Shown in pieces: positions 7,049-13,754 of a DNA stretch of 36,202 nt. Below the pieces are notes generated by a model, which had not been told where the DNA came from, did no database searches, and worked only from the letters and a program-made list of their open reading frames with translations. This DNA is from Desulfovibrio sp. (GTDB lineage Bacteria; Desulfobacterota; Desulfovibrionia; Desulfovibrionales; Desulfovibrionaceae): NCBI GenBank assembly GCA_031280915.1, contig JAITGC010000102.1:1-36202 (forward strand), in the 5' to 3' direction. A program made the position numbers and the translations under genes. Numbering within the stretch: position 1 is the first letter of the stretch; every line of letters begins with the position of its first letter.

Positions 7049-8425
7049 ATGCAAGAAAAATGGGCCGAAATTTCAGAAAATTTAAAAAAACTGCTGGATC
7101 CGGGAACCTTTAAGGTTTGGATTGCGCCTTTACGCGTTGCCGTTCGGGAGAATGGCCTCCATCTTTTCGTCCAGAACGCCTTTGTGGCGGATTGGCTGGA
7201 AGCTCGTATGGCAGAGTTGCTGCGTGAGGCGGCGGCTCCTGTCCTCGGCCTGGCGTCACAGGCCTTGGAATTGCGCATTGAAATAGCTCCGGTTCCGGCC
7301 GCTGCGCTCGTCGGTGACGGCGTTGCCGCCTCGAAGGAGGACGGCCCGGCGCGTCAACTGCCTCTGCCTCTGCCTCCTGGCGCCATTGCCGGACAGCATC
7401 AGACCTGGCGTTATTCTTTTGAGGATTTCGAGGTGGGCCTCAGCAACAGTGTGGCTGTGGCCGCCGCCAAGGATGTCTGCGGCGGCGGCGGCGTACGCGC
7501 GCTTTTCGTAAATTCCGCCCCCGGCCTCGGCAAAACCCATCTGACGCAGGCTGTGGGCAAGGTTGTCAGCCAGTCTTCGCAGGGCGGTCGCATAGCCTAC
7601 ATGACGGCGGAAGACTTTGCCCGGCATTTTGTCTCGGCCCTGAAACGGCGGGAAATTGAGAGCTTCCGTGAGCGTCTTGCCGAACTGGATGTGCTGTTGC
7701 TTGAAGATGTGCATTTTTTGCAAGGCAAGGAAAAAATTCAGGAGATAGCCTTGGCGACCCTTAAGACTCTGCAGGAACGGAACGGCAGGGTTATCTTCAC
7801 CTCTTCTTTTTCTCCGCGGGAATTGCAGGAAATGGACACAAGCCTGGTTTCATATTTTTGTTCGGGCATTCTCACCCGCATGGACAAGCCCTCCAGAGAC
7901 ATGCGCCGCCGCATCCTCATGCGCAAGGCCGGACAATTTCAGATGTCTTTGCCCGATGATGTCTGCGAACTCCTGGCTTCACGCCTGCGTGGGGATGTCC
8001 GCCAACTGGAGTCCTGCCTTAACAGCCTGATTTTTAAAGCGCGTTTGCTCAACTGCGGTCTCAATCCGCAATTGGCAATGGATGTGCTTGAACAGTATGC
8101 CGGTGCGGAATGCGGCGCGGATCTGAACACCATCATCCGTCTTGTTTGCGAGATATTCGGCCTGACGGAACGTCAGATGGTTTCGCGTTCGCGTCGTCGG
8201 GATTGCGTGTCTGGGCGCAACACGGCGTATTATCTGGCGCGCAAGCATACCGAGCTTTCATTGGAGGAAATCGGTTCAACCTTCAACCGCCGCCATTCAA
8301 CGGTCATCAAGGGAATTACGTCCGTGGAGCGTGAAATTTCCAAGGAATCCACCTTGGGGCGTCAGCTTATCCGCGCCGTGCGTCTTATTGAGCGGAATGC
8401 CGGTCTTTCCTCCACCACCGCTTAG
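7049..8425 (+). CDS. dnaA: divergent DnaA-family replication initiator
   Basis: A 458-residue protein with the full DnaA layout. Domain I is at about 1-75 (LLDPGTFKVWIAPLR), followed by a short linker. The AAA+ domain has Walker A APGLGKTH at 157-164 and a Walker B region LLLEDVHFL with E219 and D220, where the usual pair is two aspartates. The C-terminal helix-turn-helix has NRRHSTV at 413-419, corresponding to the canonical GGRDHTTV. Box VII reads VSYFCSG; aligned with E. coli (SRFGWG) the arginine finger position is Tyr269. Sensor II (RGDVRQLE) keeps its arginine. The neighbours are not dnaN or gyrB, and no DnaA box was found upstream, so it may be a second, specialised copy rather than the only initiator. 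The ATG at 7049 is the first in frame after a stop and lacks a clear ribosome site. Its 3' end overlaps tyrA. Confidence 0.85.
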   Translation: MQEKWAEISENLKKLLDPGTFKVWIAPLRVAVRENGLHLFVQNAFVADWLEARMAELLREAAAPVLGLASQALELRIEIAPVPAAALVGDGVAASKEDGPARQLPLPLPPGAIAGQHQTWRYSFEDFEVGLSNSVAVAAAKDVCGGGGVRALFVNSAPGLGKTHLTQAVGKVVSQSSQGGRIAYMTAEDFARHFVSALKRREIESFRERLAELDVLLLEDVHFLQGKEKIQEIALATLKTLQERNGRVIFTSSFSPRELQEMDTSLVSYFCSGILTRMDKPSRDMRRRILMRKAGQFQMSLPDDVCELLASRLRGDVRQLESCLNSLIFKARLLNCGLNPQLAMDVLEQYAGAECGADLNTIIRLVCEIFGLTERQMVSRSRRRDCVSGRNTAYYLARKHTELSLEEIGSTFNRRHSTVIKGITSVEREISKESTLGRQLIRAVRLIERNAGLSSTTA

Positions 8426-9152
8426 CCCGTTCGCACAAAAGTTCTACATCCCCGCTCGCGGCGAGATTGAGTATCTGGCGATATTGGCGTATGGCCTCAA
8501 GACTGTGGGGGTTGGCATTGAAAATTCCGGTGAACAGTTCCGCATCTTCGGTAAGCATTTTTCGGGCCGCCTCCATGCGGCGGCGGAAGGAAGGCGTGAT
8601 AAAAGGCAATATTTCGTCCTTGTCCGCCAACAGGGCGAAATAGGCCAAAGTAGTGATGAAGTTCATGCCCTGAATGCGCGCTACGGCCTGATCGTGCTCA
8701 CGGGCTGTCGTTTCGAAAACGTGGCAGCCGATGGCGAGAAAGAATTCCCGCACCAGCGCCAGATGTTCGGTTTTCGCTCCCCGGCCGGGAACGATGGCTA
8801 CGGTTTTGTCCTCTGCCTCAAGGGGCGCGGGGCCAAAGAGAGGATGTGTGCCCACCACCGGCCCTGACCAGTGTTTTTCCATTTGCAGCAAGGGAATTTC
8901 CTTGACTGACGTGATGTCGCAGAGTACGGCCTTTGGAGGCAGATACGGGCAAACGGAGCGTACCGTCTCCTCAAAAACAGCGGCCGGCACACAGAGGATG
9001 GCAAGCGCCGCGTCGGCGCAGGCCGGGGCCAGTGTGTCGGGAACAAGGGGCATGTCCGTGCCGGTCACGTATATGTCGCGTTCGGCGGCGCGGGCGATAA
9101 GCATGGCCCCCATGCGGCCGTGTGCGCCCACAAGCACGATTTTGTCCGTCAT
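8385..9152 (-). CDS. tyrA: prephenate dehydrogenase
   Basis: The enzyme oxidatively decarboxylates prephenate to 4-hydroxyphenylpyruvate with NAD(P), the tyrosine branch. The 255 residues begin with a Rossmann fold (LVGAHGRMGAMLIARA, residues 7-22) and contain the family motif THPLFGPAP and the helical C-terminal domain (NFITTLAYFALLADKDE). There is no chorismate mutase or ACT domain, so feedback control probably lies elsewhere. It is the last gene of the aromatic unit. Its ATG overlaps the aroA stop as ATGA, and a GGAG lies 9 nt upstream. Its last ~13 codons overlap the 3' end of convergent dnaA by 41 bp. In Desulfovibrio vulgaris I recall trp genes following at this point; here they are absent. 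Confidence 0.92.
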   Translation of the reverse strand: MTDKIVLVGAHGRMGAMLIARAAERDIYVTGTDMPLVPDTLAPACADAALAILCVPAAVFEETVRSVCPYLPPKAVLCDITSVKEIPLLQMEKHWSGPVVGTHPLFGPAPLEAEDKTVAIVPGRGAKTEHLALVREFFLAIGCHVFETTAREHDQAVARIQGMNFITTLAYFALLADKDEILPFITPSFRRRMEAARKMLTEDAELFTGIFNANPHSLEAIRQYRQILNLAASGDVELLCERAKRWWRKDRHSAQ

Positions 9153-10528
9153 CTGATCTGTCTCCAGATATCCCAGAATCGGGGGAAGGACTTGGCCACG
9201 ACTTTCGGGTCGTCCATGCGGGCCGCGATGCTGGCCGGATTGTCGGCCTCGTCCAGACCTAGCAGGGCCAGGGACATGGCGATGCGGTGGTCGTTATGCG
9301 TTGAAAGGACGGCATTGTTCGCCAAGCGTGGCCGGCGGGGATAAGCCCCGTACACGATAAGGCCGTCCGACCTCTCCTCGGCCGCAATGCCGGCTTTGCG
9401 CAATTCCGTAACTGGAGCCGCGATACGGTCGGATTCCTTGACGCGCAGATGAGCCGCATTGTACAGACGACTTGTCCCTTGGGCAAAAGCGGCCAGCACG
9501 GCCACGGTGGGAGCCAGGTCAGGGCAGGGCCCCATGTCGATATCCGCCGCGTGCAGGTTTGACGGAAAAACGCTCACCGCGTTCGGCGCGACGTTCACGT
9601 GTGCTCCCATGTTTTTCAGAATATCCAGAAAGACTCTGTCTCCCTGCAGGGAATCCCTGCGCAGTCCTTCCACGCGCACCGGCACGCGCCCCAATGCGCC
9701 AGCCGCCAGCAGATAAGACGCGCCCGACCAGTCTCCTTCCACACAGTAGTCGCCCGCCCGGTAACTTGCGGGCCGCATGGTGACGCGCAAACAGCCGGGG
9801 ACTGCCTCGGCGATGGCACGGAGGCTTCGGGCGTCGTGCTCTTCCCAGGGAGCTTCCGTGTGGGCGCGAGTTTCCACGCGGGTCTTAATGCCGAAATCCT
9901 CCAGACACTGGAGGGTCAGCCCCACATAGGGCCAGGAAATAGCTTTGTCGCCGGACAATTCCAGGAGCAGGGGAGCGGAGGACAAGGGAGCCGCCATCAA
10001 AAGGCCGGAAAAGTATTGACTGGACACATCCATGCTTATTTGGATGCGGTCTTCGCCATGCGGCGGGCCAAGTCCCCGGGCGTGCAAAAGCAGGGGAGGG
10101 CAATCCGGTTCGCCTTCAAAACGGATTTTCGCCCCGAGACGGGCAAGGGCTTGGGCAAGGTCCCCGATGGGGCGTTTATGCATGCGTTCGGCCCCGTGAA
10201 CGCGGAAAAAACCCTGTCCGGCGGCCAGCACAGCCGTGAGCAGACGGCAGGTAGTGCCCGATTCGTGCACATCGCAGGAAAGCGCATGAGCCTCATCAAG
10301 ACCGCCAATTGGTGCGGGCATGCCCCGGATTTCCCATCCGTCGTTGTCCGGCAGGGGCGTCATGGATGCCCCGGCCGCGCAAAGAATGGCTCTGGTACGT
10401 TCCAGGTCCTGGCTTTCCAGGGGATGGCGCACACGGGAAATGCCGCGTGCAAGGGCCGCACCGATGAGATAGCGGTGCGAAGCGGATTTTGAGGACGGAG
10501 CCGTTACGGAAATAATACTGTCATGCAT
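9149..10528 (-). CDS. aroA: 3-phosphoshikimate 1-carboxyvinyltransferase (EPSP synthase)
   Basis: Transfers enolpyruvyl from PEP to shikimate-3-phosphate, the sixth shikimate step, in the cytoplasm. The 459-residue protein shows the N-terminal SKSASHRYLIGAAL (substrate and phosphate binding), ESGTTCRLL, and near the C-terminus RVKESDRIAAPV and NDHRIAMSLALLGL, all standard for the family. The open frame runs back to 10942 inside pheA. The true start is the ATG at 10528: it gives the conserved N-terminus (MHDSIISVTAPSSKSASHR), overlaps the pheA stop by 8 bp, and has GAGGA 8 nt upstream. The tight overlaps with pheA and tyrA indicate one transcript with coupled translation. Confidence 0.95.
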   Translation of the reverse strand: MHDSIISVTAPSSKSASHRYLIGAALARGISRVRHPLESQDLERTRAILCAAGASMTPLPDNDGWEIRGMPAPIGGLDEAHALSCDVHESGTTCRLLTAVLAAGQGFFRVHGAERMHKRPIGDLAQALARLGAKIRFEGEPDCPPLLLHARGLGPPHGEDRIQISMDVSSQYFSGLLMAAPLSSAPLLLELSGDKAISWPYVGLTLQCLEDFGIKTRVETRAHTEAPWEEHDARSLRAIAEAVPGCLRVTMRPASYRAGDYCVEGDWSGASYLLAAGALGRVPVRVEGLRRDSLQGDRVFLDILKNMGAHVNVAPNAVSVFPSNLHAADIDMGPCPDLAPTVAVLAAFAQGTSRLYNAAHLRVKESDRIAAPVTELRKAGIAAEERSDGLIVYGAYPRRPRLANNAVLSTHNDHRIAMSLALLGLDEADNPASIAARMDDPKVVAKSFPRFWDIWRQIR

Positions 10529-11699
10529 CGTATTCGTCCTCGTCTGGAGATTCTCCGGCGTTGCGCTCCAGGCGGGGACCAATCGGATACGCGCCCAGAA
10601 TGCGGAAACTCGTGCAGGCTTCTTCCAGGCGGCGGCAGAGATTCTCATGCCGTGGGGCGGTAAGGTCGCTTTCCACATCCGCAAAAAAAACATAGCGCCA
10701 ACACTGCCCGCGCAGAGGGCGCGATTCCAGCTTGCGCATGTTGATGCCGCCGGCGGCCAGAAGGGCGAGCACTCCGGACAGGGCGCCCGCCTTGTCCGGC
10801 AGGGTGAAGAGCAGGGATGTTTTGTCCGCCGTGCCGCTGGTTTCGGGAATCGGCGGAGTGCGGGAGGCTGACTTGGGACCGATGATGACAAAACGCGTCC
10901 AGTTGTCCGAAATATCTTCAATACGGCGGGCAAGAACGCCAAGGCCGAACATGTCGGCCAGTTTTTTGTGCCCTATGGCCGCCGCGTCGGCGTTGCCCGT
11001 CGCACTTTGGGCGGCTGCGGCGGTGGATTCCGTCGGGATGAGAGCGGCCTTGGGCAGATGGACGCGCAGCCAGCCGCCGCACTGGGCCAGGGGTTGCGGG
11101 TGGGAGTAAACGGTGCGTATGGCCGCCAGGGATAAGGCATTGCTTAACAGACAGTGGGAGATGCGCGAAAACAACTCCGCCCGGATAAAGACCTCATTGT
11201 TGAGAAAGAGGTCAAAGCTCACGCCGACCGTGCCCTGCAGGGAATTTTCCAAGGGGACGACGCCCAGGTCGCACTGCCCTGAGGAGACCTCTTCAAAAAT
11301 TTGGGCGATATTGCCGCAGGGGTGAAAGGAGGCCGCGTGTCCCAGATATTCCACTCCGGCAAAATAGGAGAAGGTACCCTCGGGGCCGAGGTAGGCCACG
11401 CTCTGTGGCCGCTGCAGGGCGCGGGAAGAGGAAAATATCTCGCGCCAGATGGCCCGCAGGTGTTCTCCGGGCAGAGGGCCGGCGTTTTTGCGGACAAGGC
11501 TCTCCAATACTTCGCGTTCCCGCAGGGGTTTAAAAACGCCCGGCCCCATGTTTTTTTTGATGTCCCCCACTTCAAGGCTCAGGGAGGCGCGGCGGTTGAG
11601 CAAATCGAGCAGGGATGTGTCCGTGGCGTCGATTTCCGTTCTGACGGCGGCGAGACGTTCTTCGGGGGAGAGGGCAGCGTTGGGGGATGCTTCCGTCAC
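10521..11699 (-). CDS. pheA: bifunctional chorismate mutase / prephenate dehydratase (P-protein)
   Basis: Converts chorismate to prephenate and then to phenylpyruvate. Of 392 residues, about 10-95 form an AroQ-type chorismate mutase (RTEIDATDTSLLDLLNRRASL; REREVLESLV). About 100-280 form the dehydratase domain (YLGPEGTFSYFA, VVPLENSLQGTVG, and the TRF of NWTRFVIIG). About 295-370 form an ACT domain (LLFTLPDKAGALSGVL; KLESRPLRG) that usually binds phenylalanine for feedback inhibition, so control by Phe exists at both enzyme and attenuator level. The start is GTG at 11699, with GGGAGGT placed 6 nt before it, 2 nt after the stop of the preceding gene. Confidence 0.95.
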   Translation of the reverse strand: MTEASPNAALSPEERLAAVRTEIDATDTSLLDLLNRRASLSLEVGDIKKNMGPGVFKPLREREVLESLVRKNAGPLPGEHLRAIWREIFSSSRALQRPQSVAYLGPEGTFSYFAGVEYLGHAASFHPCGNIAQIFEEVSSGQCDLGVVPLENSLQGTVGVSFDLFLNNEVFIRAELFSRISHCLLSNALSLAAIRTVYSHPQPLAQCGGWLRVHLPKAALIPTESTAAAAQSATGNADAAAIGHKKLADMFGLGVLARRIEDISDNWTRFVIIGPKSASRTPPIPETSGTADKTSLLFTLPDKAGALSGVLALLAAGGINMRKLESRPLRGQCWRYVFFADVESDLTAPRHENLCRRLEEACTSFRILGAYPIGPRLERNAGESPDEDEYDA

Positions 11700-11701
11700 G
11701 G

Positions 11702-12685
11702 TCAGACCTCCCGTATGTCTTCGCGTACGCGCATACCGAAATGGCGGCCCGCCTCGTCAAGACGGCAGAGGGCGACATCGCCGGGCTTGAGGCACACAAC
11801 GCTCAAAGGGGCGCCGTCCGGGGCCGTCAGTCGTATGGTTTCCGCATTTTGCAGAAAAATCCCGCCTGTTTTTCGTCTGTTTTCCGTTTCCGCCTCGGCT
11901 TCAATGTAAAGCATCGGCCGTACTTCAATTTTGACGCGTCCCAAGGTGGCAAGGCGCGCGGCGCCGTCAGCGCCGACAATGAGCACTTCCCTGCCAGCGG
12001 CAAGTTCTCCAAGGTAGGTGGTTCTGTCGCGGGGCAGGCGCACGTAAGCATGCACGGCTCCGGCATTAATCCGGAAGGGCCGCGCGGCCACATATTCGTT
12101 ATGCTCCGTTTCGGCATGCACGAGAAAGGTGAAGGCTGAAGAATTGCCTACCAACATGCCCTCTCCGCGTTGGAGGAGGGAAAGGGTGTCCGCGCAGACG
12201 CGGTGCCCCAGGCCGACGGATTCCACGCGGGTAATGATGCATGGGCTTAAATTTTCCCGATTTTGTGAGAGTTTGCAGACAGCCACAATTTCTTTGATTT
12301 CGTCCGCCGCCTCGGGCGTCAGCACAACAATGGCCACGCCGCGTTCCAGGATGCCGGCGGCGAGTCTGGCTTCATCAAGGCCACCAGCTTCGGCCAGGAC
12401 GGCATCACTGCCGGCCAGCAGGTTTTCCACGGGTATCACCTCCCAACCCCGGCGCAGCACCACGCGTTCGCCCCCGCGGAGACGCTCAAGGACATTCTGT
12501 TCGTCGGTTTTGGCGGCAAGGCTGACGCGGCTTGTTTCTTCGTCCGCCCAGATGGCGCAACGGGCCAGCGTTGAAACTTGCCCAACCATGTCCCTGGGCA
12601 CAATAAGCCCGTCCACGCCGGATTCCAGGGCCAGGGTCACATGAGTTTTGTTGTAGGGAACCGAACGGAAATATATCTGTGCCAT
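11702..12685 (-). CDS. aroB': 3-dehydroquinate synthase II (archaeal-type AroB')
   Basis: In the alternative entry to the shikimate pathway this enzyme oxidatively deaminates and cyclises 2-amino-3,7-dideoxy-D-threo-hept-6-ulosonate (ADTH) to 3-dehydroquinate using NAD. It is unrelated to classical AroB. The 327 residues match the family through GVDGLIVPRDM near residue 24, the ITRVESVGLGHRVCADTLSLL block, GEGMLVGNSSAFTFLVHAE, and FRINAGAVHAYVRLP followed by TTYLGELAAGREVLIV. It starts 3 nt after the ADTH synthase stop with GGAG 7 nt upstream. The two enzymes act consecutively, which supports the function. The family is typical of archaea and is known in Desulfovibrio. Confidence 0.93.
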   Translation of the reverse strand: MAQIYFRSVPYNKTHVTLALESGVDGLIVPRDMVGQVSTLARCAIWADEETSRVSLAAKTDEQNVLERLRGGERVVLRRGWEVIPVENLLAGSDAVLAEAGGLDEARLAAGILERGVAIVVLTPEAADEIKEIVAVCKLSQNRENLSPCIITRVESVGLGHRVCADTLSLLQRGEGMLVGNSSAFTFLVHAETEHNEYVAARPFRINAGAVHAYVRLPRDRTTYLGELAAGREVLIVGADGAARLATLGRVKIEVRPMLYIEAEAETENRRKTGGIFLQNAETIRLTAPDGAPLSVVCLKPGDVALCRLDEAGRHFGMRVREDIREV

Positions 12686-12688
12686 TGT

Positions 12689-13486
12689 TTATTCTCCGAC
12701 AATTTCCAGGGCCGCGTCCACGGCGGTATTTTCATGCACGATTGCGCGCAGAGCCTTGATAAGGGCCACGCGACGGGGATGCTGGAAGATATTGCGCCCC
12801 ACGGAAATTCCAGATCCGCCCGCCTGTATGGAATTGTATACCATCTGTAGAATATCGCGGGTGGAGTCCATGCGCTCTCCACCGGCTATGACAACGGGCA
12901 CGCAACAGGCGGCAACCACATCGGAAAAGCTTTCCATATCTCCGGTATAGGGAACCTTGACGATGTCCGCCCCCAACTCCACGCCGACGCGTGCGCAATG
13001 GGCCACGATTTCCGGCGCGAATCCGTTGGAGATCTGCGGACCGCGCGCATATACCATGGCCAGCAGAGGCATGCCCCAGTTGTCGCAGGCTTCCGCCACC
13101 CTGCCCATATCCGCCAGCATAAAACGCTCATTGGGATCCCCCAGGTTAACGTGCACGGAGACGCAGTCCGCGCCGTGCTTGATGCCTTCCTCCACTGTAC
13201 CGACAAGGGTTTTTGTGTTGCCGGCCGGGGTCAGGGCGGTGGAGGCGGAGAGATGGACGATCAGCCCGATGTCCTTGCCCGCGCTGCGGTGGGAACAGCG
13301 TACCAGGCCCTTGTGCATAAGCACTGCGTCAGCGCCGCCCTTGGCCATGTCGTTAACGGCCAGGCGCATATCTATGAGACCTTCCACAGCGCCGATAGTG
13401 ACGCCGTGATCCATGGGCACAATGATGGTACGTCCGTTTTCCCTGTTGATAATGCGTTCCAGGCGGACTCTTTTGCCGAGATACAT
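12689..13486 (-). CDS. 2-amino-3,7-dideoxy-D-threo-hept-6-ulosonate (ADTH) synthase
   Basis: A class I aldolase-like enzyme that makes ADTH from aspartate semialdehyde and 6-deoxy-5-ketofructose 1-phosphate, replacing DAHP synthase. The 265-residue TIM barrel shows IVPMDHGVTIGAVEGL near the N-terminus, LMHKGLVRCSH, GADCVSVHVNLGDPNE, ADIVKVPYTGDMESF with the Schiff-base type lysine, VVIAGGERMDS, and the phosphate-binding AGGSGISVGRNIFQH. It is often mis-annotated as fructose-bisphosphate aldolase; the adjacent type II dehydroquinate synthase decides the assignment. It is the first structural gene of the unit, has AGGAG before the ATG at 13486, and lies 50 nt after the attenuator terminator. 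Confidence 0.92.
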   Translation of the reverse strand: MYLGKRVRLERIINRENGRTIIVPMDHGVTIGAVEGLIDMRLAVNDMAKGGADAVLMHKGLVRCSHRSAGKDIGLIVHLSASTALTPAGNTKTLVGTVEEGIKHGADCVSVHVNLGDPNERFMLADMGRVAEACDNWGMPLLAMVYARGPQISNGFAPEIVAHCARVGVELGADIVKVPYTGDMESFSDVVAACCVPVVIAGGERMDSTRDILQMVYNSIQAGGSGISVGRNIFQHPRRVALIKALRAIVHENTAVDAALEIVGE

Positions 13487-13535: not shown

Positions 13536-13571
13536 AAAAAAAAGGGCCGCCGGCGTTTTGCCTGCGGCCCT
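13536..13571 (-). terminator. intrinsic terminator/attenuator of the aromatic operon
   Basis: On the minus strand AGGGCCGC (13564-13571) pairs perfectly with GCGGCCCT (13543-13550). An inner GGC/GCC pair follows after one mismatch, the loop is AAAAC, and the stem is followed directly by eight T residues (13536-13543). It stands between the leader peptide and the first aromatic gene, so it terminates transcription before the operon. The 5' arm is also the partner of an alternative antiterminator helix (GCCTGTGGTC at 13608-13617 with GGCCGCAGGC at 13560-13569). Confidence 0.88.
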
Positions 13572-13636
13572 CTGAACTTCTTTCGCGTACGCGTCAACAA
13601 AGTCCCCGACCACAGGCTCCGGTAAAGTACGCGAAA
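13560..13636 (-). promoter_or_regulatory. mutually exclusive leader RNA helices (anti-antiterminator and antiterminator)
   Basis: Two competing helices can be drawn. The first pairs TTTCGCGTAC (13627-13636, inside the control codons of the leader peptide) with its perfect complement GTACGCGAAA (13581-13590). It encloses the second element, GCCTGTGGTC (13608-13617), which can pair over all ten positions (two G-U) with GGCCGCAGGC (13560-13569), destroying the terminator stem. A ribosome stalled at the Phe codons covers the first element and frees the antiterminator. A ribosome at the leader stop codon (13594-13596) covers the second element and allows termination. Confidence 0.8.
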
Positions 13637-13695
13637 AAAAACCAACTGAAACCGGCGGCGTACAGGGAGAAAGTGGCGGGAACGAAATTCTGCAT
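13594..13695 (-). CDS. attenuator leader peptide rich in Phe, Tyr and Trp
   Basis: A 33-codon ORF with ATG at 13695 and TGA at 13594-13596, too short for ordinary gene finding. It contains seven Phe, two Tyr and one Trp. The core FSWFFFAYF (residues 16-24) places Trp, three consecutive Phe, Tyr and another Phe codon exactly over the 5' arm of the first leader helix. The peptide resembles in logic the E. coli pheA and trp leader peptides and should have no function other than being translated. A GGAG lies 11 nt before the ATG. A five-residue ORF (13695-13712) whose TGA overlaps this start as TGATG may assist initiation. A promoter lies about 30 nt upstream and the terminator 23 nt downstream. 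Confidence 0.85.
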   Translation of the reverse strand: MQNFVPATFSLYAAGFSWFFFAYFTGACGRGLC

Positions 13696-13725
13696 CAATT
13701 ACCGTACTCCATAATTAGAGTATTA

Positions 13726-13754
13726 TTTATATCCGCTTGCGGAGAAGTTGTCAA
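13726..13754 (-). promoter_or_regulatory. strong sigma-70-type promoter of the aromatic operon
   Basis: The minus strand has a perfect -35 TTGACA (13749-13754), a 17-bp spacer, and -10 TATAAA (13726-13731), close to full consensus. Transcription would start near 13719, about 25 nt before the leader peptide ATG. A near-consensus constitutive promoter fits control by attenuation rather than by activation. Confidence 0.8.

Follow-up and report, generated by a model that had tools for sequence, protein, structure and literature searches.

How is aromatic amino-acid synthesis controlled in a Desulfovibrio that enters the pathway through 2-amino-3,7-dideoxy-D-threo-hept-6-ulosonate (ADTH) synthase? 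As far as the literature was searched, such control is undescribed in sulfate-reducing bacteria with this entry. The question is raised by a stretch of 36,202 nucleotides, here called the window, which is contig C96 in a draft genome of 2.34 Mb with 86.87% completeness. The original prediction, made from the letters alone, placed an attenuator reading three aromatic amino acids before the operon. By every comparative test the element is, as judged from sequence, a conserved aromatic amino-acid attenuator. We put the probability at about 0.91 that the element attenuates transcription through a translating ribosome, which would sense Phe, Tyr and Trp in a single run of codons. If so, one conserved RNA switch would govern the common pathway in most of the family Desulfovibrionaceae and answer to three amino acids at once.

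The operon and the anatomy of its leader

The operon behind the element encodes, in this order, ADTH synthase (ADTHS), 3-dehydroquinate synthase II (DHQS II), PheA, AroA and TyrA (Table 1). It begins about fifty bases past the T run of the terminator, and a convergent dnaA stands beyond it. The entry through ADTHS and DHQS II that had been claimed is borne out, as both enzymes pass curated models: ADTHS scores 383.3 bits against TIGR01949 (cut-off 299.45) and DHQS II 522.5 bits against NF002628 (cut-off 508). The PDB entry nearest to the window's ADTHS is MJ0400. The DAHP synthase family PF00793 was matched in none of the 13 genomes of the genus searched, the window genome included, compared with all eight genomes from other families of the order.

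Table 1. Positions of the operon genes and leader features in the window
Feature	Position	Strand	Basis
ADTH synthase (2-amino-3,7-dideoxy-D-threo-hept-6-ulosonate synthase)	12689..13486	-	PF01791; TIGR01949 above cut-off; MJ0400 chain E=1e-94
3-Dehydroquinate synthase II (DHQS II)	11702..12685	-	PF01959; NF002628 above cut-off
pheA: chorismate mutase, prephenate dehydratase and ACT	10521..11699	-	PF01817, PF00800, PF01842
aroA, EPSP synthase	9149..10510 (start approximate)	-	PF00275
tyrA-like prephenate dehydrogenase	8385..9152	-	PF02153
-35 hexamer TTGACA	13749..13754	-	sequence
-10 hexamer TATAAA, spacer 17 bases	13726..13731	-	sequence
GGAG, probable ribosome-binding site of the leader	13707..13710	-	sequence; presumed
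Leader peptide ORF, 33 codons and stop	13594..13695	-	translation; homologous leaders in relatives
Putative control codons Trp-Phe-Phe-Phe-Ala-Tyr-Phe (codons 18-24)	13624..13644	-	translation
Helix 1, 5' arm TTTCGCGTAC (original prediction)	13627..13636	-	present in window, not conserved
Arm 2, antiterminator 5' arm GCCTGTGGTC, within leader codons Ala27-Arg30	13608..13617	-	96.9% of cells paired, 67 sequences
Helix 1, 3' arm GTACGCGAAA (original prediction)	13581..13590	-	present in window, not conserved
Arm 3, antiterminator 3' arm and terminator 5' arm GGCCGCAGGC	13560..13569	-	pairing and alignment
Intrinsic terminator: hairpin 13572-13542, T run to 13536	13536..13572	-	-24.0 kcal/mol; 97.0% of cells paired

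The promoter agrees with the consensus at 11 of 12 letters, as near to it as had been predicted. It was read directly from the sequence, because our fixed-rule scan demands T at the last -10 position and therefore missed TATAAA. Promoter sites with at least nine of 12 letters stand within 90 bases before the leader in 50 of the 67 aligned sequences (window included), compared with 14.9% of mononucleotide shuffles. The translation of 13695-13594 gives the expected leader, MQNFVPATFSLYAAGFSWFFFAYFTGACGRGLC, with seven Phe, two Tyr and one Trp; the part around the control run reads FSWFFFAYFTGACGRGLC.

Arms 2 and 3 form ten continuous pairs, two of them G-U. Arm 3 is common to the antiterminator and the terminator, so the two helices are mutually exclusive, as claimed. 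The terminator is also as strong as had been stated: its hairpin carries eight T at the 3' side, two of them within the stem. The leader RNA of 181 bases folds 3.0 s.d. better than shuffles.

Conservation of the arms and of the aromatic codons

The test set comprised 80 ADTHS loci and the window, and 79 of these have at least 400 bases upstream. A three-part test asked for an aromatic-rich short ORF, a terminator at most 110 bases from its stop codon, and at least eight continuous pairs between the end of the ORF and the 5' half of the terminator. It was passed by 67 of the 79 orthologous upstream regions, the window included, compared with none of 395 dinucleotide shuffles and one of 900 stretches of 600 bases taken elsewhere in the same loci. 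This result speaks for the aromatic amino-acid attenuator that had been claimed before the ADTHS/DHQS II operon.

A peptide filter gave 71 leaders in 81 regions, and a terminator lies behind every one of the 71. Among the ten other regions, two (L023 and L078) are too short upstream; at L034 and L042 the element stands before ADTHS genes without DHQS II (outside the peptide-filter set), and at L057 and L063 it precedes the leading gene of a tandem ADTHS pair. The last four, L012, L062, L074 and L079 (4 of the 79 regions), gave no match to R1, a covariance model of the element, and no DHQS II was found behind these ADTHS genes. Every locus that has DHQS II behind ADTHS and readable sequence upstream carries the element, 69 in total (67 including the window, together with L057 and L063). 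R1 has one match in the window genome; across the family, 173 of 199 genomes match at E up to 0.001, and 26 give no match at that threshold.

For alignment A1, made with MAFFT, 67 of the 71 leaders were kept; L015, L022 and L072 were dropped as copies or near copies by eye, and L041 for unresolved bases. In A1 the antiterminator is paired in the percentage of cells given in Table 1, against 34-41% with one arm slid by one to three columns. Its covariation is modest, since both arms have a second role: arm 2 is part of the coding sequence for Ala-Cys-Gly-Arg, and arm 3 has to pair with arm 4 as well. Two-sided changes occur in seven cells (1.4 on average in shuffles), all on one of the ten pairs, and 388 of 500 shuffles reach two-sided change at one pair. 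Two of the ten pairs are mostly U-G, and in eight sequences a change of G to A in arm 3 turns one of these into U-A, with C changed to U in arm 4 to match. In the terminator, compensatory changes occur at 7 of 11 pairs, with two-sided changes in 45 cells (shuffled mean 8.7). The covariation sought in the helices was found clearly in the terminator and modestly in the antiterminator, and helix 1 is not conserved. The aromatic codon run, the antiterminator and the terminator are all kept across the Desulfovibrionaceae.

The spacing of these parts is conserved as well. In the 67 sequences the median number of aromatics in the densest eight codons upstream of arm 2 is six. From the last aromatic codon to arm 2 the median distance is 6 bases (interquartile range 6-6, range 0-12), and from arm 2 to the stop codon it is 11 bases (interquartile range 11-14, range 8-20). 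Within the antiterminator loop a second helix often forms, and 47 of the 67 loops fold more than 1 s.d. below mononucleotide shuffles. Outside the aromatic run and the Ala-Cys-Gly-Arg stretch the peptide varies widely in A1. Substitutions at codon positions 1, 2 and 3 (403, 411 and 518 over 91 pairs) give a signal too weak to indicate coding.

Helix 1, the first helix of the original prediction and said to overlap the control codons, was rejected as a conserved element. Its arms TTTCGCGTAC and GTACGCGAAA are perfect complements in the window, yet in the 67 sequences only 47.0% of cells are paired, compared with 45.0% in shuffles (56 of 500 shuffles reach the observed value), which is no better than two slid versions. 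Codon-permuted leaders even show a little more pairing of this type (9.3, compared with 8.0 in the 67 real sequences; p=0.045). Helix 1 is therefore at most a local feature.

With arm 3 absent, binding of arm 2 by upstream leader codons has a mean of 0.636, compared with 0.500 in codon-permuted leaders, and is higher in 58 of the 67 sequences (p=1.8e-8, a value that is too optimistic for related sequences). For the window by itself, the observed binding of arm 2 is equalled or exceeded in 42.5% of the codon-permuted controls. Binding by upstream codons fits a protector function, and there could be a protector state without a fixed helix.

One run sampling all three aromatics had been claimed, and in codon content this holds for the lineage: Phe, Tyr and Trp occur together in 60 of the 67 main-operon leaders, and Phe and Tyr in all 67. 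Leaders of the 12 operons with trpE after tyrA have a mean of 1.67 Trp, compared with 0.94 in the 48 without trpE seen; this cluster was identified by Pfam on two members, and the difference follows lineage and is not an independent test.

We also compared the codon cores of main operons with those before other genes, in a sample of 14 genomes chosen for several R1 matches and other loci at hand. The 82 main-operon cores comprise 69 with Phe, Tyr and Trp and 13 with Phe and Tyr, and none is Phe-only. They are the 67 leaders above and 15 picked ones; about 30 more, mostly near copies, were left out, and none of these is Phe-only. Among the 29 other cores, 16 are Phe-only and five have Trp. Of this group, 21 stand before ADTHS genes that have no DHQS II seen behind them or are first in a tandem, and eight before sodium:solute symporters; L054, at a contig end, is in neither group. 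The Fisher p-values for the contrast (8e-12 and 1e-10) overstate it, since loci were taken as available and include close relatives, and since classes were assigned from neighbouring genes, in some cases from no more than 150-700 bases beyond ADTHS. The difference as such is clear, and the codon core varies with the gene that follows.

The window genome has a single match to the chorismate-binding family, trpE, and it is on a different contig, C63. There (L082:561-900) trpE stands behind a Trp-run leader of its own, MFSFVISVNFTAAGWWRMSDIEGDERP, and a terminator. R1 does not match this leader at E up to 0.1. A Trp-run leader, defined as two Trp at most two residues apart, with a terminator upstream of trpE, was seen at 26 of the 30 genus loci read (L195-L224), the window genome included; trpE was matched in 37 of 41 genomes. 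In genome G417 (L190) a TrpE-like gene stands behind a WRGLWW leader that R1 matches only at E=0.003.

Proposed mechanism, alternative explanations and known attenuators

We suggest that the aromatic pathway is most likely kept off until a shortage of Phe, Tyr and Trp makes ribosomes stall. In brief, RNA polymerase would start at the TTGACA/TATAAA promoter, and a ribosome would follow on the 33-codon leader, which is presumably translated. The footprint of a ribosome extends about 15 bases upstream of its P site and about 12 bases downstream. When charged Phe, Tyr or Trp tRNA is scarce, the ribosome should stall in the Trp-Phe-Phe-Phe-Ala-Tyr-Phe run. The run ends 6 bases before arm 2, and most of arm 2 would then be free. 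Arm 2 (GCCUGUGGUC, in the Ala-Cys-Gly-Arg codons) could pair with arm 3 (GGCCGCAGGC), the terminator could not form, and ADTHS, DHQS II, pheA, aroA and tyrA would be transcribed. When the aromatic tRNAs are charged, the ribosome is expected to reach the stop codon; this lies 11 bases beyond arm 2, and at this position the ribosome would cover most of the arm. Arm 3 would then pair with arm 4, and transcription would probably end near 13536. Freeing of arm 2 by a stalled ribosome and its covering by a ribosome at the stop codon would follow the logic of classical attenuation.

Two alternatives would do without ribosome control. The leader may simply encode a translated small protein, one that acts in trans or is just conserved as a small gene, followed by an ordinary terminator. 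The promoter, the plausible ribosome-binding site and the conservation as a peptide would suit such a gene. We regard it as the least probable of the alternatives, because the peptide varies widely outside its two conserved stretches, the codons of one of these (Ala-Cys-Gly-Arg) are themselves the antiterminator arm, and in many paralogs the aromatic run is Phe-only, Tyr-rich or Trp-rich. Competing helices would equally suit a switch governed by a metabolite (a riboswitch), a T-box or an RNA-binding protein, but all of these leave the aromatic codons beside the antiterminator arm and the steady distance to the stop codon unexplained. Covariance models of riboswitches and T-boxes gave no match in the window at E up to 10 nor in 20 related loci at E up to 1, and we consider such a switch very unlikely.

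A narrower form of attenuation, which does not exclude reading of all three amino acids, is that the element is Phe-specific in effect and the Tyr and Trp codons are passengers. Phe dominates the leader of the window, and pheL of Escherichia coli is likewise Phe-rich. Three findings reported above point the other way: all three aromatics are kept in most main-operon leaders, Phe-only cores sit on other genes (16 of 29, compared with 0 of 82 in main operons), and there is more Trp where trpE follows tyrA. On this evidence a Phe-specific effect is unlikely, and we prefer an attenuator with a single run that responds to all three amino acids.

Such attenuation is a mechanism already known. The closest described element is the Phenylalanine leader of Rfam (RF01859; E. 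coli pheL-pheA), which has in common with ours an aromatic-rich leader peptide, a mutually exclusive antiterminator and terminator, and control of pheA. The stretch Phe-Phe-Phe-Ala-aromatic-Phe is, we take it, shared by the E. coli pheL peptide and the leader of the window. RF01859 aligns end to end with the window at 23.1 bits, below the gathering score of 55, and has no match in the 20 related loci at E up to 1; the element is therefore not a member of that family. The family is defined by control codons for Phe only, and none of the 82 main-operon cores has Phe alone. The element differs further in its use of Phe, Tyr and Trp codons, its five-gene operon with ADTHS entry and the lack of a conserved helix 1.

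The tryptophan leader attenuator (trpL-trpE) would work by the same mechanism, and the element differs from it in operon and codons; the Trp leader family of Rfam was absent among the matches in the window (E up to 10) and in the 20 related loci (E up to 1). In the multi-amino-acid leaders of enterobacteria (ilvGMEDA and thr) one leader reads several of the amino acids that its operon produces. The element differs from these in its aromatic set, in the ADTHS pathway, in its occurrence in Desulfobacterota and in having paralogs narrowed towards single amino acids. Vitreschak et al. (2004) reportedly compared attenuators across the proteobacteria.

A regulon survey (PMC5343134), in the portions consulted, describes how pheA and trp are attenuated in E. 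coli and other gammaproteobacteria. In an RNA motif survey that includes 10 genomes of Desulfovibrionales, the sections seen list attenuator models for his, leu, thr and trp only (PMC3766115). The main text of a terminator survey (PMC2965389) has no word beginning with "Desulfo", "phenylalanine" or "aromatic", and a delta-proteobacterial reconstruction (PMC545781) has none of the terms aromatic, tryptophan, phenylalanine and leader peptide. The parts available of PMC5764234 do not mention dehydroquinate or attenuation. A literature search, which mostly covered sources other than subscription journals, gave no report of such attenuators in Desulfovibrionaceae among the matches listed. As far as we found, such an element is new for this lineage and this pathway, and so are its codon run for three amino acids and the paralogs with altered codons.

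Leaders of the same kind before other genes, and weak matches outside the family

Within the family, leaders of the same kind stand before several other genes. Sodium:solute symporter genes lie behind Phe-run leaders at L140, L148, L156, L172, L182, L186 and L187, and at L187 two tandem symporter genes follow FFFAFFGF and YFYAYYGY. Three symporters that were scanned belong to PF00474, and two scanned against NCBIfam passed no substrate-specific cut-off. At L188:322-1542 there are tandem ADTHS genes, each with a leader and a terminator, the first with the core GWWY and the second with FGFFCFYF. Tyr-rich cores occur at L181/L192 (one place) and L155.

At L191, on the minus strand, a leader with FFSFFFFSFF (R1 E=2.5e-4) precedes genes at 2445-646 for a PaaK-like phenylacetate-CoA ligase and an ACT protein; the ligase scores 621.4 bits, slightly below its cut-off (646.3). 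Phe attenuation would possibly make sense here if the enzymes make Phe from phenylacetate, as in aryl-acid salvage.

Based on these observations, we lean towards the view that one homologous scaffold has spread through the Desulfovibrionaceae and that its codon run has been rewritten for each gene. Mixed Phe/Tyr/Trp runs would mark the common ADTHS operon, and Phe-only, Tyr-rich and Trp-rich runs ADTHS isozymes, which would then be a functional parallel to AroG, AroF and AroH of E. coli. The symporters stand behind Phe runs and one Tyr run, and would therefore be unrecognised Phe and Tyr importers. The Phe run before the phenylacetate-CoA-ligase-like gene and the ACT protein would mark aryl-acid salvage to Phe. 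With runs rewritten gene by gene, leader codons would thus be a readable label of the substrate. From the paralogs one can predict directly, and in a form open to test, the amino acid to which each isozyme responds and the symporters that transport Phe or Tyr.

In the phylum, R1 matches 46 of 395 genomes at E up to 0.01, 17 in the family and 29 outside it. We inspected 13 loci outside the family (L109-L121), where the R1 matches are weak; eight stand before ADTHS or DAHP synthase genes. ADTHS follows at L110, L111, L118, L119 and L121. At L114, L115 and L120, also weak matches, DAHP synthase genes lie behind Tyr/Phe-rich leaders with terminators. Leaders were extracted at seven of the eight loci, all but L111, and are rich in Phe and Tyr.

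Other genes follow at the remaining loci. A leader with RFFYFSGY and a terminator precede a gene of the metallo-beta-lactamase fold at L117:1501-1594. Competing helices with only two aromatics stand before an EamA-family transporter at L109, and two terminators before a TrpE-like frame at L113. L112 and L116, from another family of the phylum and on the minus strand, have a short ORF with the run ITAAAAAS or INAAAAAS, a competing helix and a terminator. The Ala-rich leader of L112 precedes a class I/II aminotransferase and that of L116 a similar frame, and the element at these two loci could be an alanine attenuator.
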